A DNA stretch of 11,291 bases from an uncultured Eubacteriales bacterium (lineage in GTDB: Bacteria > Bacillota > Clostridia > Oscillospirales > QAKW01). The translations under genes and the position numbers were made by a program. Positions 1 through 11,291 of the stretch are shown in pieces; within the stretch, counting starts at the first letter, position 1, and the number at the start of each line of letters is the position of its first letter. Below the pieces are notes generated by a model. It saw only the letters and a list, made by a program, of their open reading frames with translations, made no database searches and was not told the DNA's origin. The stretch lies in NCBI GenBank assembly GCA_934378025.1, contig CAKRPM010000017.1, positions 1 through 11,291 on the forward strand. Direction: 5' to 3'.

Positions 1-485
1 CTGCCGGAGTGGATCACCAGGTAGAAGGTTCCGTCCGACGCCTGATCCACTTCGATAAAATGATTGCCTCCTCCCAATGTTCCCAGAGAGCACCCCAGTC
101 TTTTTGTATTTTTCAAAGAACGATAACACCGGAGCTCCTGTAAGCCAAAGCCTTCCTTTCTCCCGCCCCACACTTGCTTTCCGGAGGGAATATAATGGCA
201 TGCTTCGTCTATCTTCTCAAAATCCAGCATTTTATCTGCCAGTTTCACGGTGTACATCCCGCAGCCTATATCCACTCCGACAATGTTTGGGCAGGCTTTA
301 TCCAAAACGGTCATTGTAGTTCCGATGGTACATCCCTTGCCGGCGTGAACATCCGGCATAATTCTTATTTTGGATTTTTCAAATGCCGCTTCATTACAAA
401 CGGTTTCGATTTGAGCATACGCTTTAGGCTCCAAATTGTCTGTAAAACACTCGGCCGTATTAAACATACCGATTATCTTAACCAT
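1..485 (-). CDS. rtcB: RNA-splicing ligase RtcB, N-terminal part (cut by window edge)
   Basis: RtcB joins RNA 2',3'-cyclic phosphate (or 3'-phosphate) ends to 5'-OH ends using GTP and Mn2+, and acts in tRNA splicing and RNA repair. The first 161 codons are visible, read by translating the complement of 485 to 1 without any stop. Family motifs appear in order: MPDVHAGKG (residues 43-51), GVDIGCGM (70-77), LGTLGGGNHFIEV (134-146) and VIHSG (157-161). Asp72, Cys75, His142 and His159 match the metal-binding residues known for the family; the guanylated histidine lies further on, outside the window. The start ATG follows a GAGAGGGG ribosome binding site six bases away. The gene begins 18 bp after the SPFH gene, so the two are almost certainly co-transcribed. 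It is partial only because of the window edge. Identification is firm; whether an archease, Ro60 or RtcA follows cannot be seen. Confidence 0.96.
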   Translation of the reverse strand, partial: MVKIIGMFNTAECFTDNLEPKAYAQIETVCNEAAFEKSKIRIMPDVHAGKGCTIGTTMTVLDKACPNIVGVDIGCGMYTVKLADKMLDFEKIDEACHYIPSGKQVWGGRKEGFGLQELRCYRSLKNTKRLGCSLGTLGGGNHFIEVDQASDGTFYLVIHSG

Positions 486-503
486 ATATATCCCCTCTCA
501 AAA

Positions 504-1604
504 TTAAGTATTGCCCCGTAAAATACCCGTGAGCTGTGAGAGAACATCGGTATTTCCGTTTAAATTGATATTCCCGACATTCTCGCAAATTCGTTCGACA
601 TATTCTAATTCTTTGAGCTTATACAGGGTTTGGTTTTCATCCATCAATTTTGCAGTATTCAGCAGAGATCGGGTTGAGGCCACCTCCTCGCGCCGCGTAA
701 TCACATTGGCTTGCGCCCGCTTTTCGGCGACAAGCACCGTGTTCATGATTTCACGGATTTCCCCCGGAAGAATGATATCTTTTACACCGGCATCCGTAAT
801 TTCAACGTAAAGCGCCTTCCCCTTTTCTTTTAACTTAGCAAATACAAATTCTGACATTTGAGATTTGTTTTCAAGGATCTCATCCAGTCTGTATTTGCCG
901 ACATACTCGCGAAGCGCAAGTTGCGCGGCAACATGCATTTGTTCGGCAAAATCGTCGATCTCCGTCAAAATCTTTACATAATCGGTCACGCGATAATTGC
1001 AAACAAAATTAATCCGGAGAGAGACTTTATCCCGCGTTAAAATTTCCTGACCGACTATGTCCATCTGCGTGCATCTGGTATCAACAAATTCTATATCGAT
1101 TTTTACGCCGTTTTTCCAAAAATAATATGTGCCGGCGTCCAAAATCTTGAATAATTTTCGATTGAAATAAAGTCTTGCCTTTTGGTATTCCGAAACCTCG
1201 ACCTTTGTATAATAAACCGTCGGAATTTTTGCAAAAATGTATTGCGGAACATCTGCCGATACTTCGGGGGTAGAAATATCCACCCTTTTATACTCGTGCT
1301 TATCAAATTGCGTCCAAAACGCATATTTACCATGATGTAAAACCGAATCGAACTTCCCGTTTACGAAATGAAGCGCCAGCTCTTGATCGGCCACCTCGAT
1401 CACCGATACATTTTTTGCAATTCCTTGATCTCTTAAAAGAATATCCAACGTACATTTGTCGGATACGATCGGTTGATCCAAATTTTGCACTTCAATTACT
1501 TTTCCGCCATAAGAATGATATTTGCCCGCCTCCAGCATCTTAACATACTTTCCGTTTTTGAACAGCAATCCTCTTTGGTTTTCATTGATAATTACCTTTT
1601 TCAT
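504..1604 (-). CDS. SPFH/band-7 (slipin-like) protein of an RtcB operon
   Basis: This 366-residue protein belongs to the SPFH/stomatin-prohibitin superfamily and resembles the slipin-type proteins seen next to RtcB. The likely SPFH core is about residues 170-300 (DIVGQEILTRDKVSLRINF, then VKDIILPGEIREIMN). A charged helix rich in Ala, Glu and Arg (about 290-345) is typical of the coiled-coil part. Classical slipins have an N-terminal membrane helix, but none is visible here. The first 173 residues instead hold three related beta-rich modules (about 4-39, 67-110, 134-173), each with a Gln, a hydrophobic run, (N)GK or NRK, and an aGkYxfw-like end. The start ATG has AGGAGG 11 bases upstream. SPFH proteins form oligomeric scaffolds; a role in organising or localising RNA repair is inferred from the neighbouring rtcB. 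The family call is strong, the exact job unknown. Confidence 0.9.
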   Translation of the reverse strand: MKKVIINENQRGLLFKNGKYVKMLEAGKYHSYGGKVIEVQNLDQPIVSDKCTLDILLRDQGIAKNVSVIEVADQELALHFVNGKFDSVLHHGKYAFWTQFDKHEYKRVDISTPEVSADVPQYIFAKIPTVYYTKVEVSEYQKARLYFNRKLFKILDAGTYYFWKNGVKIDIEFVDTRCTQMDIVGQEILTRDKVSLRINFVCNYRVTDYVKILTEIDDFAEQMHVAAQLALREYVGKYRLDEILENKSQMSEFVFAKLKEKGKALYVEITDAGVKDIILPGEIREIMNTVLVAEKRAQANVITRREEVASTRSLLNTAKLMDENQTLYKLKELEYVERICENVGNINLNGNTDVLSQLTGILRGNT

Positions 1605-1685
1605 AATATGTATTCCCTCCTACAGGTTTCATTTCGTTTGCAATTGCTCATGCACCTCTTGCGGTCGGAATTTTCAGTGGTCGTA

Positions 1686-1719
1686 CCGATCAGCGGAAAG
1701 AAACCTTTTGGCTGATCGG
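1686..1719 (-). promoter_or_regulatory. 9-bp inverted repeat upstream of slipin-rtcB (operator or RNA hairpin)
   Basis: CCGATCAGC (1686-1694) and GCTGATCGG (1711-1719) are perfect inverted copies separated by 16 bases, lying about 80-115 bp before the SPFH start codon. A second small inverted repeat, GATAC-ACG-GTATC, is next to it at 1723-1735. No T-run follows on the minus strand, so it is not an intrinsic terminator. It could be a protein-binding operator, for example for the WYL proteins encoded just upstream, or an RNA hairpin in the leader. The symmetry is certain, the function is not. Confidence 0.35.
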
Positions 1720-1827
1720 CTTGATACACGGTATCCGATTCCGAACAAGGCAAAAAGATACATTGCCGACAAAAAGGAATGTTGCGTTCTTCGGCCGAGC
1801 AATTGCGCTTTTAAAATTAAAACAATC

Positions 1828-1860
1828 GTGCTTTCGCACACTTTTTTTGCCGTTTCCGGC
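1828..1860 (-). other. Tandem GAAA-tetraloop hairpins
   Basis: On the minus strand GCCG-GAAA-CGGC (1860-1849) is followed by seven A and then GTGC-GAAA-GCAC (1839-1828). Both are four-pair stems capped by a stable GNRA loop. The plus-strand reading is a short hairpin followed by seven T, which could be taken for a weak terminator, but no plus-strand gene exists here to need one. They are probably part of the slipin-rtcB leader. Confidence 0.35.
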
Positions 1861-1899
1861 TGTCACCAAACCACTGGCGGATATCGGCCCGCAATTAAT

Positions 1900-2041
1900 A
1901 AGCGAGCAAATCCTATGGGAGTCGAACCCGTCTGTTTTACAGCTTATCGCAAAACAGACTGCCAAAAACGCAAGAAATTCTTTTGGCATACACTTTGGCA
2001 TTGCCTTGTGCACCGCAGTGAGAAATGTAAAACACTCGCTC
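1900..2041 (-). ncRNA. Candidate structured RNA with a tRNA T-arm-like hairpin
   Basis: On the minus strand, 2041-2033 (GAGCGAGTG) can pair with 1908-1900 (TGCTCGCTT), nine pairs of which three are wobble, closing a domain of about 142 nt. Inside are CAC/GTG around 2020-2011, TGCCAAAA/TTTTGGCA (1988-1981 with 1967-1960), a perfect 9-bp stem GTCTGTTTT/AAAACAGAC (1959-1951 with 1938-1930), and GGG-TTCGACT-CCC (1929-1917). The last is a T-loop of seven bases with the TTCRANY pattern, although its stem has only three clean pairs plus one mismatch and one pair. No acceptor stem, D-arm or anticodon arm of a normal tRNA could be completed. Bacterial Y RNAs are known to mimic tRNA arms and to lie near RtcB/Ro60 genes, so a Y-RNA-like or pseudo-tRNA element is plausible. 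I did not find the exact Ro-binding motif and no Ro60 gene is in view. Confidence 0.4.
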
Positions 2042-2091
2042 TAAGAACCCTTGCAAGAATATTTTACCAACACCCTTTGTATAAAACACGG

Positions 2092-2130
2092 AAAAAAAGC
2101 TGCGAACTCAAATGAGTTTGCAGCTTTTTT
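2092..2130 (-). terminator. Intrinsic terminator overlapping the end of the second WYL gene
   Basis: On the minus strand a stem of up to 18 positions with one mismatch (arms 2130-2114 and 2109-2093, loop 2113-2110) is flanked by an A-run and followed by seven T (2098-2092). The left arm encodes the last residues of the WYL protein and its stop codon lies in the loop region. The A/T runs make it nearly symmetrical, so it could stop transcription on either strand. It marks the end of the upstream operon and implies that slipin-rtcB has its own promoter or depends on regulated read-through. Confidence 0.88.
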
Positions 2131-3019
2131 GACTTTTCAGACGTGCAATTATTAAATTTTTAAATTCATTTGGCGCAACCGCTTCCACCAAAGGGCCGAA
2201 ACTTAAAGTGCGAATGACCATTTCTATTTCATCCGATTTTTGATATTTGATATGAACCAGATACTTTTTTTCATCAACCCGTTCCACCCGCTTTGCAAAA
2301 TGTGCAAAATGCAGTAAAACTCTCTCGAGCGCATTACGCTCATTATAAACGCATAAGGTTAGCGCCTTATTTGCCTGCATGGAAACAGCGTGCGGTTTAT
2401 ACCCCTCAGCATGACACCGCTTGCATGCCGTAATACGTCCGAGATTTACCATTCCGGCATAACGGCACCTTGAACTGATCAGTCTGAATTTGTCATCCTT
2501 TTCGGAATATTCCAACCATTGCGGCATAACTTTCGCCGAAACCAAATTGCCGTTTCGATTTTTCATTTGTATTTGCAGAGGTTGATGATCCTTTAGTGCG
2601 GATAAAATCGTTCGAAACCTTTTTATATACTCCTCATCATAAAACGGATCACCGTCGTTATATTTATCGTATATGTAATAATCCTCAGAAGTAAAGAGCG
2701 GTTGTATATCTTCCAATCCTTGAAAGTCAATATCAAACAGCTTGATCCGCGGATCAAGCGAAATGGCTTTTAACCACTGCTTTTCAATGGTGGTAAGCGG
2801 TAGGGTCGGAATATGCCGCAGAGGGGTCGTCAAATTTTCCTTTACCAGTTGCCACTTTTCATTTTTCAGTGCCGGCCAGACGGCAAGCATGCTCTCGCCG
2901 AAAGCGTTTTCACAGATGATTTTCCGAATATTTTCCTCATCCGCTTGACCGCTGATTATACTTGTAATGATTTTTGCCACCGCATTGTAATAGGCGGAAT
3001 AGATTTCGTTAAATATCAT
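2108..3019 (-). CDS. WYL-domain protein (second of a pair)
   Basis: This 303-residue protein is a WYL-family protein. WYL domains are Sm-like beta folds that bind nucleic acid or nucleotide-type ligands and usually control transcription. The core lies at about residues 140-215, with the characteristic stretch VMPQWLEYSEKDDKFRLISS, where aromatic and Leu residues take the place of the classical WYL triad. The C-terminal part (about 245-300, with RTLSFGPLVEAVAPNEF) resembles the WCX extension. I see no clear helix-turn-helix at the N-terminus, which is mainly helical, so it may work with the upstream WYL protein rather than bind DNA alone. An ACKRC pair of cysteines follows the core. Its ATG overlaps the stop of the upstream WYL gene (ATGA), indicating translational coupling. 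Pairs of such proteins near slipin and RtcB suggest control of the repair operon; that role is inferred. Confidence 0.85.
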   Translation of the reverse strand: MIFNEIYSAYYNAVAKIITSIISGQADEENIRKIICENAFGESMLAVWPALKNEKWQLVKENLTTPLRHIPTLPLTTIEKQWLKAISLDPRIKLFDIDFQGLEDIQPLFTSEDYYIYDKYNDGDPFYDEEYIKRFRTILSALKDHQPLQIQMKNRNGNLVSAKVMPQWLEYSEKDDKFRLISSRCRYAGMVNLGRITACKRCHAEGYKPHAVSMQANKALTLCVYNERNALERVLLHFAHFAKRVERVDEKKYLVHIKYQKSDEIEMVIRTLSFGPLVEAVAPNEFKNLIIARLKSQKSCKLI

Positions 3020-4269
3020 TCTCCCGCCTCCTCAATGCCGTACATACAGTACATTTTTTTAAGATCATTTTTAAACTGCTCTTCAAGCGTTCTGTTAGAA
3101 AAATGCAGATCGGTGATTCTGCAAATAAAGGTTCTGATCCAAGGAATCATTTCGTTTATATCATAAACATCGGCGGTAAAACGGTAGGCGTGCTCGTCAA
3201 TTTTCTCGACGGTTCCGACGCGCTTTTCCCGTATAAGTCTGCGGACGATATACCCCTCATCTTCGGCGACCTTAACCGTAAATTCAACATGTTCGACGCA
3301 GTCTTTTCGATGATGGCCGGCATTTACCATAACCCCCCACATTTTCGGCTGCATCTCATGAAGCTCTGCCCTGAGTTCATCAAAACGAGGCGTGGGCTCC
3401 TCTATTTTAACATCCGCCAGATAATCCATCCTAAAAGACCTAAATGCATTAAAGGCCGGATGATACGCAATCAAGTGCTGCCTGCCGTTTTGAACACTTA
3501 TAAAAATCCGCAGCGGGATGATTCTGTTTTTTCGCGGTTCGTTGGTGCGGCGGCTCATGTTGCTCACAGTTACAACACGTTTTTCCCGCATCGCCTTAAA
3601 TAATGTTGCCGCTATATTACTGTCTATTGCCGAGGTAATATAGTGGTGCTTAAAACAAAAGTTGTCCTCTTGCAACGCTTGCTTATCAAGTAAAAAAGAA
3701 CCGATCGCTCCGCACGGAGCAATCTCGGAGAAAAAGTTCAACGCGTCCGTGATTCTCGGCAAATCGGTGTCTTTCGCACGATGATATAGCAATTTTCTGC
3801 CGTCTTTTTGACTCACAATCAGCCCCTGGGCGATGTACTCCTTGAGCTTTTTTCTGACCGTGGATTCATCAAATACCATCGGATTTTCAAATACGGAAAG
3901 ATACCCATCAATCTGCTGGAGTATTTCAGGAAGTGATAAAATTACTTCGGGCGAATAAAGAATATCAAACAAAATAAAATGCAGCGTAATATCCCCGTCG
4001 GTAAAACTTTTTGCTTTCAGCGCTTTATAAAAAGGATTATGTTGGGACACTCGGCTATCAATCGAGATGAACACATTTTTGCCTTCCGGCGTACGAACAA
4101 AGCTCATGTGATCCCCCAGCAAGCTTTCTATCCTACGTCGCTCATTATCATAAGAACGTGCGCTTTTCCGATTGTATTCATCTCTGTTTTTAAATCCGTA
4201 AACATAAAATTCGCGCATATAGTTTCGGATTTTCTCAAAGTTTTTTACCAGCTCGTTATAGGATGACAA
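3016..4269 (-). CDS. WYL-domain transcriptional regulator (first of a pair)
   Basis: This WYL-domain protein has about 417 residues. The N-terminal half is helical and probably holds a divergent winged-helix DNA-binding region: about residues 120-165 include DESTVRKKLKEYIAQGLI, which reads like a recognition helix and wing. The WYL core is around 230-300 (KNRIIPLRIFISVQNGRQHL, then AYHPAFNAFRSFRMDYL), and the WCX-like C-terminal region reaches the end. The frame is open from a GTG at 4278, but that GTG is part of the AGGAGGTG ribosome binding site. The in-frame TTG at 4269, eight bases after AGGAGG, is therefore the more likely start. The stop overlaps the next WYL gene by 4 bp. A small 9-bp hairpin (4319-4339) without a T-run lies between it and the acetyltransferase gene. 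It is a candidate sensor-regulator of the slipin-rtcB operon, inferred from position. Confidence 0.87.
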   Translation of the reverse strand: MSSYNELVKNFEKIRNYMREFYVYGFKNRDEYNRKSARSYDNERRRIESLLGDHMSFVRTPEGKNVFISIDSRVSQHNPFYKALKAKSFTDGDITLHFILFDILYSPEVILSLPEILQQIDGYLSVFENPMVFDESTVRKKLKEYIAQGLIVSQKDGRKLLYHRAKDTDLPRITDALNFFSEIAPCGAIGSFLLDKQALQEDNFCFKHHYITSAIDSNIAATLFKAMREKRVVTVSNMSRRTNEPRKNRIIPLRIFISVQNGRQHLIAYHPAFNAFRSFRMDYLADVKIEEPTPRFDELRAELHEMQPKMWGVMVNAGHHRKDCVEHVEFTVKVAEDEGYIVRRLIREKRVGTVEKIDEHAYRFTADVYDINEMIPWIRTFICRITDLHFSNRTLEEQFKNDLKKMYCMYGIEEAGE

Positions 4270-4277
4270 TGTATTCA

Positions 4278-4283
4278 CCTCCT
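4278..4283 (-). promoter_or_regulatory. Ribosome binding site that sets a TTG start
   Basis: AGGAGG sits eight bases before TTG at 4269 and overlaps the alternative GTG at 4278, which rules that GTG out as the start of the first WYL gene. Confidence 0.75.
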
Positions 4284-4345
4284 ATTTGTCAGGCACAACA
4301 GACCCGATCATAAACATTTTGTTCTTCGGCGAAAAACAAGTGATT

Positions 4346-4945
4346 TTACGCTTTAATTTTTCTGTTTTTGTAGTAATACGTTTGATCGCGTTCGCTAATC
4401 GGGCGCATAACACGGCACGGATTTCCCACCGCCACAACATCGGATGGTAAATCTTTTGTGACCACGCTACCGGCACCGATTACGGTATTATCGCCGATGG
4501 TAACCCCCGGAAGAACAATAACGCCCGCACCCAGCCAGCAGTTTTTGCCGATATGAATCGGCAAATTGTACTGATACGCCTGACGACGAAGCTGCGGACA
4601 AACGGGATGCCCGGCGGTTGCCAGTGTTACATTCGGTCCGATCATTGTATAATCTCCCACAAATATATGGGTGTCATCTACCGCCGTGAGGTTAAAATTG
4701 GCATACACAAATTTTCCGAAATGAATATGTTTTCCGCCCCAATTGGCCGAAAAAGGAGCTTCAACAACACACCCCTCCCCGATTTCCGCAAACATTTCCT
4801 GCAGCATAGTTTCTCTTTTTCGGCGTTCTCCGGGTCTTGTTTGGTTATAATCATAAAGTTTCTCAAGACATTTGGTTTGCTCGTCAATAATCGCCGGATC
4901 CCCCGGCAAATAAAGCTCGCCTGTATGCATTTTATCTATTTCCAT
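4346..4945 (-). CDS. Maltose/galactoside O-acetyltransferase family protein
   Basis: This 199-residue enzyme of the LacA/Maa type has a left-handed beta-helix fold and transfers acetyl from acetyl-CoA to a hydroxyl of a sugar or sugar-like molecule in the cytoplasm. The N-terminal helical part carries the typical HTGELYLPGDPAI (residues 7-19) and YNQTRPGERRKR (33-44). Hexapeptide repeats run from about 55 to 185. His113 in TAGHP matches the catalytic histidine of LacA. VIVLPGVTIGDNTVIGAGSV and VAVGNPCRV near the end are the acetyl-CoA-binding coils. Length is normal for the family (LacA has 203). AGGAGG lies nine bases before the ATG, and the gene follows the deaminase after 36 bp. The true acceptor is not predictable; members often act as detoxifying acetylases. 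Without more evidence I leave the gene symbol empty. Confidence 0.93.
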   Translation of the reverse strand: MEIDKMHTGELYLPGDPAIIDEQTKCLEKLYDYNQTRPGERRKRETMLQEMFAEIGEGCVVEAPFSANWGGKHIHFGKFVYANFNLTAVDDTHIFVGDYTMIGPNVTLATAGHPVCPQLRRQAYQYNLPIHIGKNCWLGAGVIVLPGVTIGDNTVIGAGSVVTKDLPSDVVAVGNPCRVMRPISERDQTYYYKNRKIKA

Positions 4946-4981
4946 ATTGCTTTTCCTCCTCTATCTGTACATATTGCATTT

Positions 4982-5374
4982 TTATATCCACCACTGCGGC
5001 GTCAATTCACCGAGTGTCGCCACCTTGCCCTGTTCATAGTCCAACATAATTTCAATATTCTTATAATTTTCCGGCATAAGCTGCGTCATCAACTCGCGGC
5101 ATGCCCCGCAAGGCGGCATCGCTTTTCCATGCCGATTCACTGCGATGACCCGCCGAATATCACTTTCGCCCCGGGTAATCATATTAAAAATTGCATTTCT
5201 CTCGGCGCATATTCCCAGTGTACAAGCACTGTCTACGCAAACGCCGACATATATTTTTCCTGTTCCCGATTCAACTGCGGCGGCAACGCCGCCCGCTTCC
5301 ACAACTTTTGAAATTTCTCGCGGATAAAGCACTTTCATCGCCTCATCATACAGTTTGTCCCAAACTTCTTGCAT
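4982..5374 (-). CDS. Cytidine deaminase family protein
   Basis: This is a zinc-dependent nucleoside deaminase of the small tetrameric cytidine deaminase type, which converts cytidine or deoxycytidine (or a similar amino-pyrimidine compound) to the uridine form. Using the start at 5374 it has 130 residues. The first zinc motif is CAERNAI (Cys56, Glu58 as the proton shuttle), the second PPCGACRE (Cys89, Cys92). An in-frame ATG at 5389 also exists, but GGAGG at 5383-5387 is eight bases before the ATG at 5374 and overlaps codons of the longer form, so the shorter start is preferred. It sits between the small membrane protein and the acetyltransferase, probably in one transcript. The family also contains blasticidin-S-type deaminases of similar size. 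The pairing with an acetyltransferase allows a drug-modifying role, but salvage of pyrimidines is the default. Confidence 0.9.
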   Translation of the reverse strand: MQEVWDKLYDEAMKVLYPREISKVVEAGGVAAAVESGTGKIYVGVCVDSACTLGICAERNAIFNMITRGESDIRRVIAVNRHGKAMPPCGACRELMTQLMPENYKNIEIMLDYEQGKVATLGELTPQWWI

Positions 5375-5382
5375 ACCCATTT

Positions 5383-5387
5383 CCTCC
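5383..5387 (-). promoter_or_regulatory. Ribosome binding site deciding the deaminase start
   Basis: GGAGG, eight bases before the ATG at 5374, lies inside the coding stretch of the longer alternative beginning at 5389. It favours the shorter protein. Confidence 0.65.
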
Positions 5388-5451
5388 ATTTTTATAATCT
5401 CTCCCCAAAAATCGCTGTCCGATTATATGGAGATTGATCCATTCGTTCATA

Positions 5452-5886
5452 TTATTTAGCATTTTTATAGGAAATCATAATATGGCTCGGTGCAAAAAGC
5501 ACCGAAAATACAATCAGCAATACCGACCTGCTCATGATTCCGCTGAACAAAAATAAAACGGACGGTATTACAGAAAGAGCCAGCGCACGAAAAACACTGC
5601 TTTTATTAAAACACACCATCCATATCAAGCAATAACTCAACACCAAAAGCGCATTTACCATCAGATATACCGCAAAAGCCTCATCAGAGCACCATCCAAA
5701 GTAAGTGCCGGGAATATTGATGATCATAAAAATAAAGCAACCAAATCGACTGATCTGTTCGATAATCTCTGCAAATTTGTTATTCCATTTATTTGCAAAC
5801 CCATCCTTGCATTTTACTGCAAAAACAATATTGGGAATCATAATGATGATTATAAAAATCAGTCCAAAGATATTTAGCCATTTCAT
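5452..5886 (-). CDS. Small four-helix membrane protein of unknown function
   Basis: This is a 144-residue protein that I do not recognise. It has about four hydrophobic helices (roughly residues 5-24, 47-65, 71-91 and 100-135, the last possibly two short ones), separated by short polar loops. A charged cytoplasmic-type loop (KCKDGFANKWNNKF) follows the first helix. No catalytic motif or signal-peptide cleavage site is visible. It is the first gene after a consensus promoter (5920-5948), and GGAGAG precedes its ATG by a suitable distance. The deaminase gene follows 77 bp after its stop. Similar small unannotated membrane proteins are common in Clostridia. The gene is very probably real because promoter, ribosome binding site and hydrophobic periodicity agree. 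Confidence 0.8.
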   Translation of the reverse strand: MKWLNIFGLIFIIIIMIPNIVFAVKCKDGFANKWNNKFAEIIEQISRFGCFIFMIINIPGTYFGWCSDEAFAVYLMVNALLVLSYCLIWMVCFNKSSVFRALALSVIPSVLFLFSGIMSRSVLLIVFSVLFAPSHIMISYKNAK

Positions 5887-5919
5887 AAAACTCTCTCCAA
5901 ATCATATTTACTATTATTC

Positions 5920-5948
5920 ATTATAATCGTTCACATCATCAAAGTCAA
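5920..5948 (-). promoter_or_regulatory. Sigma-A-type promoter
   Basis: On the minus strand TTGACT (5948-5943) and TATAAT (5925-5920) are separated by exactly 17 bases, almost the full housekeeping consensus. Transcription would begin near 5912, about 25 bases before the ATG of the membrane protein at 5886. It lies directly after the terminator of the surface operon, so it starts a separate unit: the membrane protein, deaminase and acetyltransferase genes and perhaps the WYL genes. Confidence 0.88.
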
Positions 5949-5984
5949 CGAATCATCTTGCTATTGTTAAACACTGATTTTGTA

Positions 5985-6028
5985 ACAAAAATTCCCTTTG
6001 AGAAAAGAGTTTTTCCTTTCTCAAAGGG
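5985..6028 (-). terminator. Intrinsic terminator of the surface-protein operon
   Basis: CCCTTTGAGAAA (5994-6005) and TTTCTCAAAGGG (6017-6028) form a perfect 12-bp stem. On the minus strand it is followed by AATTTTTGT (5993-5985). It lies 40 bases after the stop of the sortase-anchored protein gene and closes the operon. Confidence 0.92.
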
Positions 6029-6068
6029 CATTTTATCCGACGGTTATAGCAAACCTTAATACATCCGA

Positions 6069-6767
6069 TTACCTACCAAAGAAACGCATATCCATAATTT
6101 TTGTGGATTTTTTCTTTTTGCCGCAAATTGCGGTGATTGCTGCGCATACGCCGAAGGCAACGAGCAAAACAACCCAAACATCCATCCCGCTGTTTTCCCC
6201 GGTTTGAGGAGAAATCATTGCGCCGGTATTGCCGGTTCTCGCCGACGCGATAGCATAGTATCCCCCTTTTTCAATGGTAAAAGCTATTTTTTTATCACCG
6301 CTTTTGGAAGCAAGCTGTGATACCCTGCCGTTTGCGGAAACCTCCGCTGCTTTGAGCGTTCCGTAGCCATTCATTAAAGCGATGCTCACCTCAATGGGCA
6401 TATCCACGTCAACGCGAGTTCCGTATTCGTCCAGAAAATAAATATCGTAAAACAAAAGATCATTTCCGAGATTTGCTGTACAGTCCGAAATCCATCGATA
6501 AGCCTTCTCATCCTGTTCGGTAATCGGAACAATCACCAATTGCAGGTTCGGAGCCGTGGATTTTGGCGTTAATGTAACCTTGACGCCGTCGGGCAATTGA
6601 GCAATATAATTGCCGCCATCATCTTTTTTTGCACCGTAACAGCCGTCGGGAAGCGTATAAACCGATTTTGCTAATACGCTGATCGTCTCATTTTCTGCGG
6701 CAAAAACCGATACAGAACAAAAAACGGACAGTATAACGGTGGCAATGAGAACAGCCGTTTTTTTCAT
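6069..6767 (-). CDS. Secreted, sortase-anchored surface protein with SPQTG signal
   Basis: This 232-residue protein has a signal peptide (Lys-rich start, hydrophobic core, cleavage near VSVFA-AE, residue 23). A probable beta-rich outer domain follows (about 30-175). The C-terminal sorting signal is SPQTG at 186-190, then a hydrophobic stretch (about 196-216) and four Lys (217-220). SPQTG and NPQTG variants are used by some clostridial sortases, which link the Thr to the cell wall. The tail after the Lys cluster is about 12 residues longer than usual. The central region is not recognised, but its last part (FTIEKGGYYAIAS) is common in clostridial surface proteins. It starts 3 bp after the stop of the gene before it, with a GGAGGG ribosome binding site inside that gene's last codons, so translation is coupled. 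It is the last gene of the operon. No sortase gene is in view. Confidence 0.85.
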   Translation of the reverse strand: MKKTAVLIATVILSVFCSVSVFAAENETISVLAKSVYTLPDGCYGAKKDDGGNYIAQLPDGVKVTLTPKSTAPNLQLVIVPITEQDEKAYRWISDCTANLGNDLLFYDIYFLDEYGTRVDVDMPIEVSIALMNGYGTLKAAEVSANGRVSQLASKSGDKKIAFTIEKGGYYAIASARTGNTGAMISPQTGENSGMDVWVVLLVAFGVCAAITAICGKKKKSTKIMDMRFFGR

Positions 6768-6770
6768 ATT

Positions 6771-7256
6771 TTACCCTCCCACAGTAGTATTCAGCGTTAC
6801 AGTTCCGGCACTGTAATAGGTGTCCGGCTCGTACGCCATGATTTTGATTTTAATGGTTGCTCCGTTTTCGGGGACGGTGTCAAATGTCACCGCCCGAATA
6901 TATTCATTGGGCTTTAAAAGTCCTGTTTCGGCAAGAATGTTGTCCTCTTGATCAAGAATACGCAGTTTTAACCAGACCTTGTTGCTGTCATCGTTGGTAA
7001 AGAACACATCCGCCGCGCTTCCATTCAAAGTGACTTTGCCGCATATATGAGCCGAGAAATTCATGCCGTCCCGATAAATTTTCGTCCAGCTCTCGTCCGC
7101 CACGTCCGGCATACCGCTTTGCGCCGCTTTCTCAAACGGCGGTGGAGTAAACGCTGCCTGCTTGGATTTTCCGCCTGTCAGAGCAAGAGACAAAATCATT
7201 CCGGCAACCGAAAGAACGCAAACTGCGGCAGAGAAATAAATGGCTTTACACTTCAT
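6771..7256 (-). CDS. Membrane-anchored extracellular protein (relative of the 8552-9088 product)
   Basis: This 161-residue protein has one N-terminal membrane helix (about 5-27), a Pro-containing spacer and an outer beta-rich domain (about 55-161). An ATG at 7286 is in frame, but AGGAG at 7266-7270 lies nine bases before the ATG at 7256 inside that longer form, so the shorter start is chosen. The outer domain resembles that of the membrane-anchored protein encoded at 8552-9088: both read as VFFTN or LLFAN, then a strand with LKLRIL or LQLAID, (L/R)LxPxxx, and a VTLN or VTVTV end. The N-terminus could be an uncleaved signal anchor, since no clear cleavage site follows it. Function unknown; presumably it holds or assembles the secreted partners at the membrane. 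Confidence 0.78.
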   Translation of the reverse strand: MKCKAIYFSAAVCVLSVAGMILSLALTGGKSKQAAFTPPPFEKAAQSGMPDVADESWTKIYRDGMNFSAHICGKVTLNGSAADVFFTNDDSNKVWLKLRILDQEDNILAETGLLKPNEYIRAVTFDTVPENGATIKIKIMAYEPDTYYSAGTVTLNTTVGG

Positions 7257-7265
7257 ATTTTCAGA

Positions 7266-7270
7266 CTCCT
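7266..7270 (-). promoter_or_regulatory. Ribosome binding site deciding the start at 7256
   Basis: AGGAG is nine bases before the ATG at 7256. The upstream ATG at 7286 has no comparable site. Confidence 0.6.
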
Positions 7271-7318
7271 GTACAGCTTCTATCATTCTTCATGTTTGCT
7301 CACCATCGTCTTGATGAG

Positions 7319-7378
7319 CAAAAATCAGGGATGATTTTTGTCGGAACACAGACCGCATATCGACGGCCTGTGTTCCGA
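7319..7378 (-). other. Two abutting intercistronic hairpins
   Basis: On the minus strand a 15-bp stem with one wobble pair (arms 7378-7364 and 7355-7341) is directly followed by a 9-bp perfect stem (arms 7340-7332 and 7327-7319, loop of four). The first begins six bases after the stop of the upstream gene. Neither has an unpaired T-run behind it, though five T lie in the 3' arm of the second. They could be a leaky terminator or an mRNA-stabilising or processing element that makes the two small secreted proteins more abundant than the genes downstream. Confidence 0.6.
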
Positions 7379-7383
7379 TAACA

Positions 7384-7917
7384 TTAGTTATTTTCGAGGG
7401 TCACTGTCACCATACCGATTTTCGTTTTTTCGACGGTTTCGGTGGAAAGCGCACCGTCCAGGCTGAGGGTGGCGCTCCCCGAAGGTGCATTTAAAGGATC
7501 CGTTTCTACGGCGCTGGCCAGATTCAGTTTTGCATCAGAAAAAGTGCCGACAATGTTGCTGTATCCCGACTCGGAGGCATAGCTGAACTGTACGGCTACG
7601 GCAGTATTGGAATGATTTTTGACCTCGATTTTGTTTGCGTCTGCCGCGCAGCTCCATGCAGCCGGCACGGCACCGTCATATTTATGATTGACGGGGTTCC
7701 AAGTGCCGCTGGACGCATCGGTGTAGGTAAATTCCATACTGCCCCAGGTGATATCAACACTGTAAACTGTTGCAGCAGTGCCGCCCGCAATATAAGTTCC
7801 CTTAACCGCGACGGAATCACTTGAGCCGTTGGCAGTGATAGGACTTGCCGCAAAGGCAGTTACAGACATCAGAGAAAGCAGTGCCAAAGTGAGCATTGTT
7901 GAAAATACTTTTTTCAT
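7384..7917 (-). CDS. Small secreted protein with the locus-specific repeat domain (copy 1)
   Basis: This 177-residue protein has a clear signal peptide (residues 1-23, ending AFA-AS). The mature part is one domain shared with its neighbour at 7952-8479 and with the C-terminus of the large protein. The hallmarks here are SVDITWGSMEFTY (53-65), WNPVNHKYDG, a W...D.NKIEVKNHSN stretch, VAVQFSY, VGTF, TLSLDG and a final IGMVTVTL. No cysteine pattern, membrane helix or anchor is present in the mature part apart from a single Cys. The absence of an anchor suggests that it is released or built into a surface polymer with its relatives. It does not match a family I can name; camelysin/TasA-like and WxL proteins were considered but the motifs differ. 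It starts 34 bp after the related gene. Confidence 0.82.
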   Translation of the reverse strand: MKKVFSTMLTLALLSLMSVTAFAASPITANGSSDSVAVKGTYIAGGTAATVYSVDITWGSMEFTYTDASSGTWNPVNHKYDGAVPAAWSCAADANKIEVKNHSNTAVAVQFSYASESGYSNIVGTFSDAKLNLASAVETDPLNAPSGSATLSLDGALSTETVEKTKIGMVTVTLENN

Positions 7918-7951
7918 TTTCCTTCATTCCTTTCTGAATATAAAATATAAA

Positions 7952-8479
7952 TTAGTTCAGAGAAACGGTGATAGAGCCGACTTTTGTGAATTCGGCAACA
8001 GAACTTGCAAGAGTACCGGAAAGCGTCAGTTTGGTATTTACGCTGTCAGCACCGTCCACATTGCCCACAACACCGGCATCGAGGGTGTCAGCGGCCACGC
8101 TGAACCGACCGGTAACGTCGTTATAGCCCTCGGCGGCCGCATAGGCGAAGTTGACCTTTACATCCATGTTGGAGTGGTTGACGACGGTGACGTCATTGCC
8201 GTCTGCCGTCCAGTTGGCAGTGGTGTTGTCGTCATACTTATGGGTGGCAGGATTCCAATCACGGGTGCCGGAAGCAGAATAGGTAAACTCCATTTTGCCC
8301 CACGTTACGTCCACACTGTATACTTCCGGGGTGGTTGTGCCGCCTGCGTACTTGGCCTTGACATCGATACTCTTGCTGCCGTTTTTACCGGACACTGTTT
8401 CCGCCGAGACCGATACCGCCTGCATAGCCATGAGCATCAGCGCCAACGCCGCAACGACAAATTTCTTTAGTTTCTGCAT
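7952..8479 (-). CDS. Small secreted protein with the locus-specific repeat domain (copy 2)
   Basis: This 175-residue protein has a signal peptide (residues 1-26, ending SVSA-ET) and AAGGAGG eight bases before the ATG. The mature part matches copy 1 along its whole length, including the N-terminal strand region (G.S.S(I/V).VK..Y..GGT) before the domain. Hallmarks: SVDVTWGKMEFTY (55-67), WNPATHKYDD, NDVTVVNHSN, VKVNFAY, VTGRF, KLTLSG and a final VGSITVSLN. The mature protein has no cysteine or anchor. The two copies have diverged well beyond recent duplication, so both are probably maintained by selection. Its role as a structural subunit is an inference from size, secretion, duplication and operon position. 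Confidence 0.82.
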   Translation of the reverse strand: MQKLKKFVVAALALMLMAMQAVSVSAETVSGKNGSKSIDVKAKYAGGTTTPEVYSVDVTWGKMEFTYSASGTRDWNPATHKYDDNTTANWTADGNDVTVVNHSNMDVKVNFAYAAAEGYNDVTGRFSVAADTLDAGVVGNVDGADSVNTKLTLSGTLASSVAEFTKVGSITVSLN

Positions 8480-8551
8480 GAAAAATTCCTCCTTAATTTA
8501 TGCTGTTTTAAATTTTTTATATATTTCACGCTCGTTCAGGCGAAAGAACCT

Positions 8552-9088
8552 TTACGACCTCACCGTTACGGTTACGGGGATCTTTGTATTGATCATGGCT
8601 TTTTCTCCGCTTGTACGGTCATAATACAGGACGATGAAATTCCCATCATAGCCTCCTGCGGCAAGCCGCTTTTCGGCGCCGTCCAAAAGGCTAAGCGTGG
8701 AAACCTTGTTACCGGGCTCCAGTCTTCCAGACTGCAGGATAACAACATCGTCTATCGCAAGCTGCAGTACCATATCCTGATTGGATTTTGAAGGATTGGC
8801 AAACAAAAGGGTTGCACTTTTATCCGAAAGGCTGATGCCGACCTCTTTTGCATAGGTAAGCCCTACGGCGCCGCCGCCCTCGGGCTGCGAAAGTTTTTCA
8901 TCTCCATCGTCACCGATTGGCTCGGCATTTTTCTCAATCTGTTGCGGCGCATAATCGGGAGCGAGGACGGGCGTGCTGTTTCGAAACCATATTGCCCAGA
9001 CGCTGAGGCCCACAGCGGCAATCGTAATCAGCAGCAACAACAAAATCAGCAACCGCTTCTTTTGATTTTCTTTTTTGTCATCGGTCAT
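8552..9088 (-). CDS. Membrane-anchored extracellular protein (relative of the 6771-7256 product)
   Basis: This 178-residue protein has a charged cytoplasmic start (MTDDKKENQKKR), one membrane helix (about 13-34), an acidic Gly/Pro spacer (about 40-75) and an outer beta-rich domain (about 78-178). The outer domain resembles that of the 6771-7256 product in strand order and in its closing VTVTV. The positive charges before the helix fit an N-in, C-out anchor. It starts 2 bp after the stop of the large protein; the GGAGGG ribosome binding site lies in the last codons of that gene, giving coupled translation. No enzyme motif is visible. Perhaps it is a membrane tether or assembly factor for the secreted proteins of the operon. 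Confidence 0.8.
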   Translation of the reverse strand: MTDDKKENQKKRLLILLLLLITIAAVGLSVWAIWFRNSTPVLAPDYAPQQIEKNAEPIGDDGDEKLSQPEGGGAVGLTYAKEVGISLSDKSATLLFANPSKSNQDMVLQLAIDDVVILQSGRLEPGNKVSTLSLLDGAEKRLAAGGYDGNFIVLYYDRTSGEKAMINTKIPVTVTVRS

Positions 9089-9090
9089 AC

Positions 9091-11291
9091 TTAATACCCT
9101 CCAATCGTTACCGTTACCGACCCGAGTACCGATTTATTCATTGATTCGCTCGGTTTCCCGCTTAAAGTCAGCCATGCGGATTTTTCTTCACCGACAGGAA
9201 GGGCAACCGGCGCGGTAATGGCTGCCGCACCATCGGTAAAGCCGCCGGACACCGTACTCTTTGTCGGCGTATAGCCATAAGATACGTTGACCGCAACCTC
9301 ACCGCTGTTGTGAACGGTAATTTTGTTTCCGTCCGTTTGATCCGGGCTCCAGCCGACGCCCTCATAGATATGCGTTGCCGCGTCCCATGTCCCATCCGAG
9401 TAGGTAAATTCCATAGCAGCCCATGTGATATCCACGCTGACAATGTCAACATGAATATCTTTGTAGTCTACAGAACGGTTTCCCGCATGGTCAACGGTGG
9501 TTACAGTTATCCTTGTATCTCCTGCAGGAAGCCCCGTCAGTGTAAAGCTGACATCGGTTTTCTCGCTTGTCGAGACGCTTTCGGTTTTCAGCGTTTCCGT
9601 GCCGTCTTTTATCTCATAAGTGACCGAAGCAAGCCCTGATGAATCTATACTGTTCTTGCTGTCCTTTACCGTCACGGTCATACCCGAATCCACGGAATAA
9701 TCGCCAAAGATAATTTCGGGAGCGGTCTTGTCAATTTGAACAAGCTTAAAGCCCTCGGTTTTATTGGCTTCTCTGCCCGTCTCCGCATCGCCCGCATTAT
9801 CGTAAACCTTGTAATAAACGTAATATTGGCCTTCATCACTCGCGGTTATTGTATTTCCGGCAAGCGCTTTCAGCCCATCAGCGGGAATTTGATCAGCATT
9901 TGAAACAATTTTATACCATTTCTCTCCAACACCGCTTTGGCTATCGCTTGCGGTTATTGTAAAGATCTGATTGTCTTTCGACCAACTGCTCGAACCGCCG
10001 CTTGCGGTCACGGTCGGCGGGTCGAAGTCCAGCTTATCAACTTTTATCGTATCGCTGTTCTCACCGCCGTAGTCAAGATCGCGGACGGTCACCGTATAAT
10101 CGCCGTTCTGCCTTGCCCAGACCTGACCGCTTGACTCCGTGCTTGTTTTGCCGTCCGGCAAAATCACCTCATAATTCTTTCCGGTGTAATTGGAAAGCTG
10201 CCAGTTCAAGGTGGCCATATCATTTGTCCATGCTGTCGGTGCGCCTGTTATGGTGATGGTCGGCGCATGATTCTCTACTGCCGCTTGAGAAATCACCGTA
10301 TAAGGCGATGAATAGGTTGTGCAGGTATGTGCCAAATAATCGGATACCTTGATATGCAGATATAGTGTGGTCGGCGTGCTTTCACTTGCCGTATAGGTCA
10401 CCGTTGTTGCACCGGTCTGAAGCGTACTCCATGAAGTCGGCGTTGCCGTGCCGCCCGTCCACCTGTACTGCACGGTTTTTACACCCGAATGGGCGTCGGC
10501 ATAGGTGATCGGCAAAACAATTTTTGTGTAAACGCCGCTTTTCGGTGATTCAACGGAATCATCCGTCCTCTCTCCGATAGAAGCCGTAGGATTTTCCCGA
10601 TCAATCTTCTCCACCGGAACGGTTTTAGAGATGACGACATCCCCCGCTGTCAGCAAAAACGTATAATAACCGTTTTCGGTAACCGTAGCACTTGTTGCAC
10701 TTGTGCTCAACGTTGTCCAAGCGGTGGCGCCCGACTTGCGGTATTTCAGCGTTTGCGCTCCCGTCACCGAAATGCTTATTTTTCTGCTTGTCGCCCAGTT
10801 TGTATTATCGGCCGTAACCGTAAGCGTCGGCGGTGTACTGCCCGCTGCGGGGCTGGACGCCGTGCCGAAATCCAGGCAGACGTTCTTGTAAGCCGAAGCG
10901 CCCGTTGTAGCGTAAACCGCTTTCACATGAAGATACCACTTGCCGTTCGATGCACCGCTGCCCGGCGCTTTACGAATGGAAAGCGAAAGTCCTGAATTTT
11001 TCGCGGTTGTGAGCTCTGATGAGGAAAGCTCCACCCAGCCGCCGGTGGGCGCTGTCGATGAATCCGACCAAGCATAGCTCATGCCCGTAGTCTTGGTTTT
11101 CACCGCATTTACCGTAATGGTTGCTTTGCCCGTACCGCTGGTAATGCCGTTTGCCGTAACGGTAAAATTCGGCATAGAGGTATCAACGGTTGCCGTTGTG
11201 GTTCCCGAGCCGCTTTCTGTCGCTTTTACCGTATCGCTGTTGCACATATCCTTGATAAGGCTTGGATTTGTAAAGCTGTTGACCGTGAGCG
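9091..11291 (-). CDS. Large secreted Ig-repeat protein, C-terminal part (5' end outside window)
   Basis: The frame is open from the right edge to the stop at 9091 (733 codons visible), so the Met at 11247 is internal and the true start and signal peptide lie outside. Counting from that Met, the protein contains several Ig-like or fibronectin-like beta modules of 80-110 residues, beginning near 137 (PPTLTVTADNTNW), 220 (NPTASI), 328 (APTITITGAPTAW), 411 (PPTVTASGG) and 511 (APEIIFG). Motifs such as LHIKVSD and VYDNAGD are typical of such clostridial and bacillar surface proteins. The last 120 residues are the domain found in the two small secreted proteins (SVDITWAAMEFTY, then WDAATHIYEG, NKITVHNSG, WLTLSG, LGSVTVTIGG). 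There is no LPXTG motif or membrane helix at the C-terminus. It is probably an adhesin or stalk protein joined to the other components by that shared domain. It is the first visible gene of the operon. Confidence 0.85.
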   Translation of the reverse strand, partial: LTVNSFTNPSLIKDMCNSDTVKATESGSGTTTATVDTSMPNFTVTANGITSGTGKATITVNAVKTKTTGMSYAWSDSSTAPTGGWVELSSSELTTAKNSGLSLSIRKAPGSGASNGKWYLHVKAVYATTGASAYKNVCLDFGTASSPAAGSTPPTLTVTADNTNWATSRKISISVTGAQTLKYRKSGATAWTTLSTSATSATVTENGYYTFLLTAGDVVISKTVPVEKIDRENPTASIGERTDDSVESPKSGVYTKIVLPITYADAHSGVKTVQYRWTGGTATPTSWSTLQTGATTVTYTASESTPTTLYLHIKVSDYLAHTCTTYSSPYTVISQAAVENHAPTITITGAPTAWTNDMATLNWQLSNYTGKNYEVILPDGKTSTESSGQVWARQNGDYTVTVRDLDYGGENSDTIKVDKLDFDPPTVTASGGSSSWSKDNQIFTITASDSQSGVGEKWYKIVSNADQIPADGLKALAGNTITASDEGQYYVYYKVYDNAGDAETGREANKTEGFKLVQIDKTAPEIIFGDYSVDSGMTVTVKDSKNSIDSSGLASVTYEIKDGTETLKTESVSTSEKTDVSFTLTGLPAGDTRITVTTVDHAGNRSVDYKDIHVDIVSVDITWAAMEFTYSDGTWDAATHIYEGVGWSPDQTDGNKITVHNSGEVAVNVSYGYTPTKSTVSGGFTDGAAAITAPVALPVGEEKSAWLTLSGKPSESMNKSVLGSVTVTIGGY

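Follow-up and report, generated by a model that had tools for sequence, protein, structure and literature searches.

Gene organization of the locus

The analysed window is a stretch of 11,291 nucleotides (contig CAKRPM010000017.1, positions 1 to 11,291) from an uncultured Eubacteriales bacterium, and its minus strand carries an operon in which a domain that we call D recurs. Starting from the gene of the large protein, those of T1, B, A, T2 and T3 follow. The large protein occupies what we call the tip position (9091..11289, minus strand, as for all features below); 732 of its residues are visible, and its start is unseen because the gene extends past the window edge at its 5' end. It is built of repeats, which match the OmpL47 type below threshold (37.7 bits; cut-off 40), and of a C-terminal D (9091..9447), whose core begins at about residue 615 of the open frame, at base 9447. 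B (7952..8479) and A (7384..7917) are small secreted D proteins of 175 and 177 amino acids including the signal peptide, and are the candidate shaft subunits. Each of them bears a short motif ahead of its D, namely IDVKAKY in B (8348..8368) and VAVKGTY in A (7792..7812), which is absent upstream of the copy in the large protein; the D core of A covers residues 52-175 (7393..7764).

The other three genes lack D. T1 (8552..9088) has a single N-terminal transmembrane (TM) helix according to hydropathy, a conserved APDYAP segment and a C-terminal domain, while its paralogue T2 (6771..7286, with the ATG at 7256 as the likelier start) has a TM helix followed by an FTPPPFE segment. T3 (6069..6767) contains a signal peptide, a domain of its own and a sortase-type anchor, in which the sorting motif SPQTGE (6195..6212) is followed by a TM helix and lysines.

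The D domain

The initial annotation had proposed that one domain occurs three times in this operon, in the two small proteins and at the end of the large one, with a complete order of motifs, and both statements hold. The three copies share about 41% identity: A and B are identical at 72 of 174 positions (BLASTP, E 5e-41), the tail of the large protein (9091-9459) and A at 52 of 128 (BLASTP, E 6e-20), and when all three are aligned 30 columns are invariant, arranged as described before. The gene at 8552-9088, within the interval originally noted, encodes the membrane protein T1 and no copy of D. The small copies have a conserved N-terminal extension, which the tail copy does not have.

It turned out that D fits no named family, as had been supposed. 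D reaches no cut-off in Pfam, NCBIfam or PHROGs; Pfam and NCBIfam gave sub-threshold matches only, PHROGs gave zero matches for A and B, and the PDB sequence searches with D gave chance-level matches only (best E 0.21 and 1.5). When 118 relatives of D were compared with Pfam individually, the matches were weak and scattered, with at most 23 members per family and a best E of 0.0032 among the matches listed. The profile search scored 6260 candidates and collected 965 proteins at E <= 0.001; the best 120 of these are free of Pfam domains, and the few that bear a name are called "hypothetical protein". The WxL and camelysin/TasA families, named beforehand as known families to compare with the domain, were searched, and among the matches listed no member of the 118-row D alignment was better than E 0.095 against either PF13731 (WxL) or PF12389 (TasA/camelysin); the Pfam scan of the window proteins gave no PF12389 match. 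Among the matches listed for the same alignment there is likewise no fimbrial family match. A weak match to PF04449 (CS1-type fimbrial major subunit, E 0.0044), below threshold, falls within D in the protein at L011:12103-13182 (residues 260-330). A single family of D with T1 and T2 was considered and rejected, as the hhalign matches are confined to 20 columns of the hydrophobic helix or to a stretch of 26 columns. A literature search by titles and abstract starts, with most subscription journals and bioRxiv outside its coverage, found no prior description of the cassette among the papers listed.

Distribution of the cassette

One genome per species was scanned, and 68 pattern matches gave 57 loci, or 58 with the window, holding 129 D proteins with 130 D copies. 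At least two D proteins are present in 40 of the 58 loci, which bears out the expectation that the domain recurs in such operons. The usual order is tip protein with D, T1, one to three small D proteins, T2 and T3. T1 was found in 43 loci, T2 in 37, kin of either in 49 and T3 in 25, and all five parts are present in 15 loci including the window, several of the others being cut by contig ends. By record titles the hosts are largely Clostridia (e.g. Clostridiales, Oscillospiraceae, Lachnospiraceae), some being given just as "Bacillota" or "bacterium"; strains given by name belong to Gemmiger formicilis, Ruminococcus bicirculans and Diplocloster agilis.

The family is rare. In the part of the first-look candidates that was scored, matches were found in 0 of 195 other genomes from the class of G001 and in 2 of 390 from the class of G005. 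Recombinase-like genes, recognised by eye, lie near the cassette in three loci (L006:5291-6910, L023:3475-5211 and L057:14262-14861), in line with the patchy distribution and a possible mobility of the cassette. Besides, a small D gene at L024:10001-10535 is spread over two overlapping frames (126 and 74 amino acids) and thus looks broken by a frameshift. The natural tandem protein of L011 has one full-length relative besides itself.

The N-terminal motif follows gene position

In the small D proteins, 20-30 residues of strictly alternating character lie between signal peptide and core. All 118 rows of the alignment have V in column 38, G or A in column 40 and Y or F in column 42, with mostly polar residues between them; we call this the donor motif. 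D genes were classed as tip or shaft by their position, using separate T1 and T2 profiles. Within 24 residues upstream of the core, [VI]x[AG]x[YF] was found for 67 of 83 copies in shaft position, for 1 of 27 in tip position and for 8 of 15 that remained unplaced (Fisher p 3e-13 for shaft against tip; 2.6% in shuffles), a count that omits four D proteins with cut or partial core matches (L024, L026, L031, L040). With one copy per 60% identity group, the pattern is found in 49 of 64 shaft and 1 of 25 tip copies. A 7-column score over a wider upstream window gave 59 of 84 and 0 of 27, respectively; the motif score was trained on the 118-row alignment, three rows of which recur in the loci or the window. 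All 27 tip copies have a long part before the core, and among the 10 shaft copies with such a part 5 pass the pattern or the score. A role of the motif as a general export tag was rejected: among D proteins whose core is preceded by a long part, 0 of 40 mature N-termini show the pattern, and therefore the motif is no general tag.

Structure models

The AlphaFold2 monomer model of A (118 rows) has a mean predicted local distance difference test score (pLDDT) of 86.9. Residues 54-175 are folded, with block pLDDT of 95-98 and 85 in the last block, and the model and structure searches together suggest an immunoglobulin-like (Ig) fold of the PapD/MSP type. The extension with the donor motif has no secondary structure in this monomer (block pLDDT 77).

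The initial annotation had suggested predicting the complexes between the copies, and a pair of subunits was modelled. In L013 the genes of a B-type and an A-type subunit are in frame with one stop between them, and they were read as one chain (39-row alignment, four rows over the second half). In the pair model the motif of the second subunit (GTKEVTATYVQ) becomes an 11-residue strand with block pLDDT 68, while that of the first, which follows no other subunit, is unstructured at pLDDT 35. In the structural alignments, the FimC rows match over FimC residues 1-92 in 12 of 13 cases for the monomer (1-106 in the other one), and over 1-117 to 1-121 in 12 of 12 listed rows for the pair, where the ranges on the pair model run from 33 to 199-203 and include the donated strand. 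The top Z is 7.8 for the monomer and 9.9 for the pair. Foldseek matches at E <= 0.001 rise from 0 to 30, which is partly due to the presence of two domains. The structural alignments set the donated strand at the last-strand position in the fold of the first subunit. We read D, on these models, as a domain without the last strand of the PapD/MSP-type fold, presumably strand G1, which the next subunit would supply.

T1, T2 and T3

T1 and T2 are homologous membrane proteins (hhalign probability 98.8). Pfam gave weak single-member matches only for 24 aligned T1 proteins (best E 0.0038) and no PapD match, the PDB gave no match for T1, and neither DUF916 nor DUF3324 matched the T1 and T2 of the window or the 24 T1 proteins scanned. 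T1 and T2 were also considered as donors and rejected: past the TM helix 15 of 82 have the pattern against 3.8% of shuffles, but 10 of these 15 matches coincide with the helix end (I/VWALF or alike) and the other 5 lie in T2 segments at scattered places, and the 12-column donor score finds 0 of 84 in residues 40-100.

For T3, the pattern occurs in the first 32 mature residues of 16 of 24 proteins against 7.8% in shuffles. In 14 of the 24 it coincides with the N-terminal place given by the alignment, the matches of L021 and L027 sitting on a later segment. In the window the donor-like segment is ISVLAKS (6663..6683), a degenerate form without the last aromatic residue, which is missing in L017 too. 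We sorted 25 T3 anchors by eye into 18 of sortase type (one PKTS), 2 TM helices without such a motif, 2 with choline-binding repeats, 1 dockerin and 2 cut or unclear; the N-terminus is kept while the anchor type varies. T3 homologues in which a dockerin or choline-binding repeats replace the sortase signal are found at L007:11472-12362, L015:11432-12622 and L023:11864-13084. Sortases occur in 8 of 10 host genomes, and in one of them (G009, contig C83) on the same contig, about 12 kb from the D genes.

A proposed donor-strand fibre and its alternatives

We propose that these proteins form a surface fibre linked by donor strands, with an acceptor-only tip, a shaft of subunits that both donate and accept, and a donor-only wall anchor, and we give this proposal a probability of about 60%. 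D would be an incomplete Ig-like domain whose last strand is absent, and the N-terminal strand of a small D protein (I/V-x-V-x-G/A-x-Y) would fill the groove of the preceding D. The large protein, with a groove and no donor, would sit at the far end with its other modules pointing outward, while T3, with a donor but no D groove, would fix the near end to the cell wall, through sortase in most loci and through choline-binding repeats or a dockerin in a few. As factors that assemble or hold the fibre, T1 and T2 would be the best candidates, which is a guess based on where their genes lie and on their membrane anchor. The genes (tip, T1, shaft, T2, anchor) would then be arranged in the same order as the subunits. 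The design of minor and major subunits suggested in the initial annotation is favoured by the distribution of the donor motif and by the two-subunit model, whose confidence is moderate; from such models and patterns we infer the polymerisation, the length of the fibre and the roles of T1, T2 and T3. A short stalk of tip, B, A and T3 fits as well as a long fibre.

Several points weigh against this proposal. The pattern is missing from 16 of 83 shaft copies and, at the aligned place, from 10 of 24 T3 proteins including that of the window; the 12-column score exceeds the 99th percentile of shuffles in just 60 of 80 small copies and 8 of 24 T3; and pattern and classes were set post hoc, on data related to those tested. 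The donated strand has a block pLDDT of 68 in a pair model with a predicted template modelling score of 0.46, which comes from one run with four rows over the second half and no altered-motif control. The pair is an artificial in-frame read-through with a signal peptide in the linker rather than a natural chain, the strand pairing was read from DSSP and alignment ranges without coordinates, and the two structure searches set an A-type monomer beside a B-type domain. The extension scores higher in the monomer (pLDDT 77) than the donated strand does in the pair, so it is not simply disordered there. Besides, no sortase match was found in 2 of the 10 host genomes, which are drafts, and in one of these, that of L011, no T3 was found either. 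Among gene groups present in at least 4 loci, within 10 kb, no chaperone, usher or sortase was recognised by eye.

Among the alternatives, a display platform like that of WxL proteins would let D bind the wall or partners singly, without a chain of strands, the motif being a docking tag for T1 and T2. According to PMC10599100 and PMC9772566, WxL (csc) clusters combine a small single-domain protein with a large one bearing the same C-terminal domain, an Ig-like protein anchored in the membrane and, in many cases, an LPXTG protein; the L. garvieae locus is a WxL cluster of the same plan. The mature WxL N-terminus (e.g. TTQVTAKFKTG) resembles the motif, and the best profile match (probability 61) covers the signal peptide and this segment only. 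A match reaching into the D core has an hhalign probability of 37 only. The likeness is an analogy of plan only; among the matches listed D has none to PF13731 better than E 0.095, and the T1 and T2 scanned have no DUF916 match. What's more, a general tag would not explain why tip copies lack the motif, and the donated strand forms in the pair model. We consider this platform rather unlikely; a remote link between WxL and D is conceivable, since the WxL profiles are shallow (2, then 5 sequences). Membership of D in the TasA/camelysin fibres is very improbable in our view. The Gram-positive TasA fibre uses N-terminal donor strands, and the N-terminus of TapA resembles the TasA donor strand (PMC9674648), which parallels T3; monomeric TasA complements itself, and the pLDDT of the D extension in the monomer would allow the same. 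Among the matches listed, however, D has none to PF12389 better than E 0.095, the PF12389 hits in 2 of 10 host genomes are on contigs other than those of the D genes, and the fold predicted for D matches PapD/MSP-type Ig folds, whereas TasA is a jelly roll. Nor was a signal peptidase such as SipW recognised by eye in the gene groups present in at least 4 loci (529 neighbour open reading frames), with no profile search made for it.

That the D proteins are independent secreted adhesins or sugar-binding proteins, merely sharing a stable scaffold, would suit the CBM26 modules on some shaft-position proteins and the choline-binding modules on one D protein, but the recurrent gene order with T1, T2 and T3 and the dependence of the motif on gene position make it quite improbable. 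A classical sortase-polymerised pilus is hardly credible: T3 has the LPXTG-like motif and sortases are common in the host genomes, one lying near D genes, yet the small D proteins end in D or an added module, those inspected carry no sorting signal, only T3 has one, and no sortase was recognised by eye among the recurrent neighbours.

Comparison with known donor-strand systems

Donor-strand fibres are familiar mainly from the pili of Gram-negative bacteria, and a non-covalent example from Gram-positive ones is TasA. PMC3960871 describes the Ig fold of chaperone-usher pilins as incomplete and their N-terminal extension as one in which hydrophobic residues alternate. At the tip, FimH and PapG have no extension, the P4 site of Pap accepts only glycine, and the terminator PapH donates and cannot accept. 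The proposed fibre resembles these pili (type 1, P, Saf, F1) in that an incomplete Ig fold would be closed by the N-terminal strand of the next subunit, as judged from models of moderate confidence, in the alternating residues with a restricted small position (here G or A in column 40), and in a two-domain tip without donor and an end subunit that donates and does not accept. Unlike them, it would have a wall-anchored base and no outer membrane; no usher or PapD-type chaperone was recognised by eye among the recurrent neighbours, no sequence match to pilins or PapD was found, and T1 and T2 are membrane-tethered and unrelated by sequence.

A large tip protein that carries a TasA domain is not known to us. 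With TasA/TapA of Bacillus the cassette shares the Gram-positive host, the N-terminal donor strand and an accessory protein with a matching N-terminus, here T3, but TasA has a jelly-roll fold, SipW in its operon and no sequence match to D. Archaeal threads (Saci_0406) are described in PMC9715654 as a donor-strand filament of secreted pilin-like subunits with a putative donate-only cap. They follow a similar plan, and Saci_0406 appears in the Foldseek result for the D monomer (rank 13, E 0.066, probability 0.35); in contrast, no sequence relation was found, and the archaeal system is glycosylated. The WxL proteins at L091:5866-10268 begin with TTQxxAxFxxG, akin to the donor motif of D, and to judge from this likeness WxL clusters may also use strand exchange.

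Modules of tip and shaft proteins and surroundings of the cassette

The tip proteins range from giants of up to 3036 amino acids (L001) to others of about 300. In the small tips of L009 and L028 a cohesin-like part (sub-threshold PF00963) lies ahead of D. In L009:1-8417, the gene before the one for the cohesin-like part and D encodes a 2494-residue protein of leucine-rich, fibronectin type III and PKD repeats with a dockerin-like C-terminus (sub-threshold). Both matches, though below cut-off, suggest that this protein might be docked onto the fibre tip by dockerin-cohesin pairing.

Proteins in the shaft position also carry extra modules, such as CBM26 (L007, L039), a ubiquitin domain (L014) and other C-terminal parts. 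For instance, L014:10541-11863 encodes a secreted shaft-position protein of 440 amino acids with an N-terminal ubiquitin domain (PF00240, E 2.5e-21), a donor-like motif and D, and among the literature matches listed nothing was found on it. At L047:8834-9964, D comes right after the signal peptide with no donor motif and with choline-binding repeats behind; we read this one as a putative acceptor on a wall-binding protein.

In the window, a terminator-like hairpin lies past T3 (5994..6028; 15 pairs, T-rich tail). The scan found 2 such sites against 4.0 in shuffles, so the count carries no evidential weight. The minus-strand neighbours (window 3-485 and 504-5886) resemble, as we assume, RtcB, an SPFH/slipin protein, two WYL-type regulators, a maltose-type acetyltransferase and a cytidine deaminase, and these genes are outside the cassette.

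Implications

We tentatively suggest, as a possibility below even odds, that the cassette represents an undescribed class of non-covalent pilus in bacteria that lack an outer membrane, with strand exchange, T1 and T2 as chaperone and platform, a gene order equal to the subunit order, and exchangeable tips and wall anchors. Such tips could be adhesin repeats or a cohesin-like domain possibly holding a separate giant with a dockerin. As a domain of unknown function, D thereby gains a mechanism that is open to test, and the N-terminal motif lets donor and acceptor proteins be predicted. If the proposed fibre exists, it would be a second, unrelated donor-strand design of Gram-positive bacteria beside TasA, with defined tip, shaft and wall anchor, and would give gut Clostridia a new way to display adhesins and sugar-binding modules.

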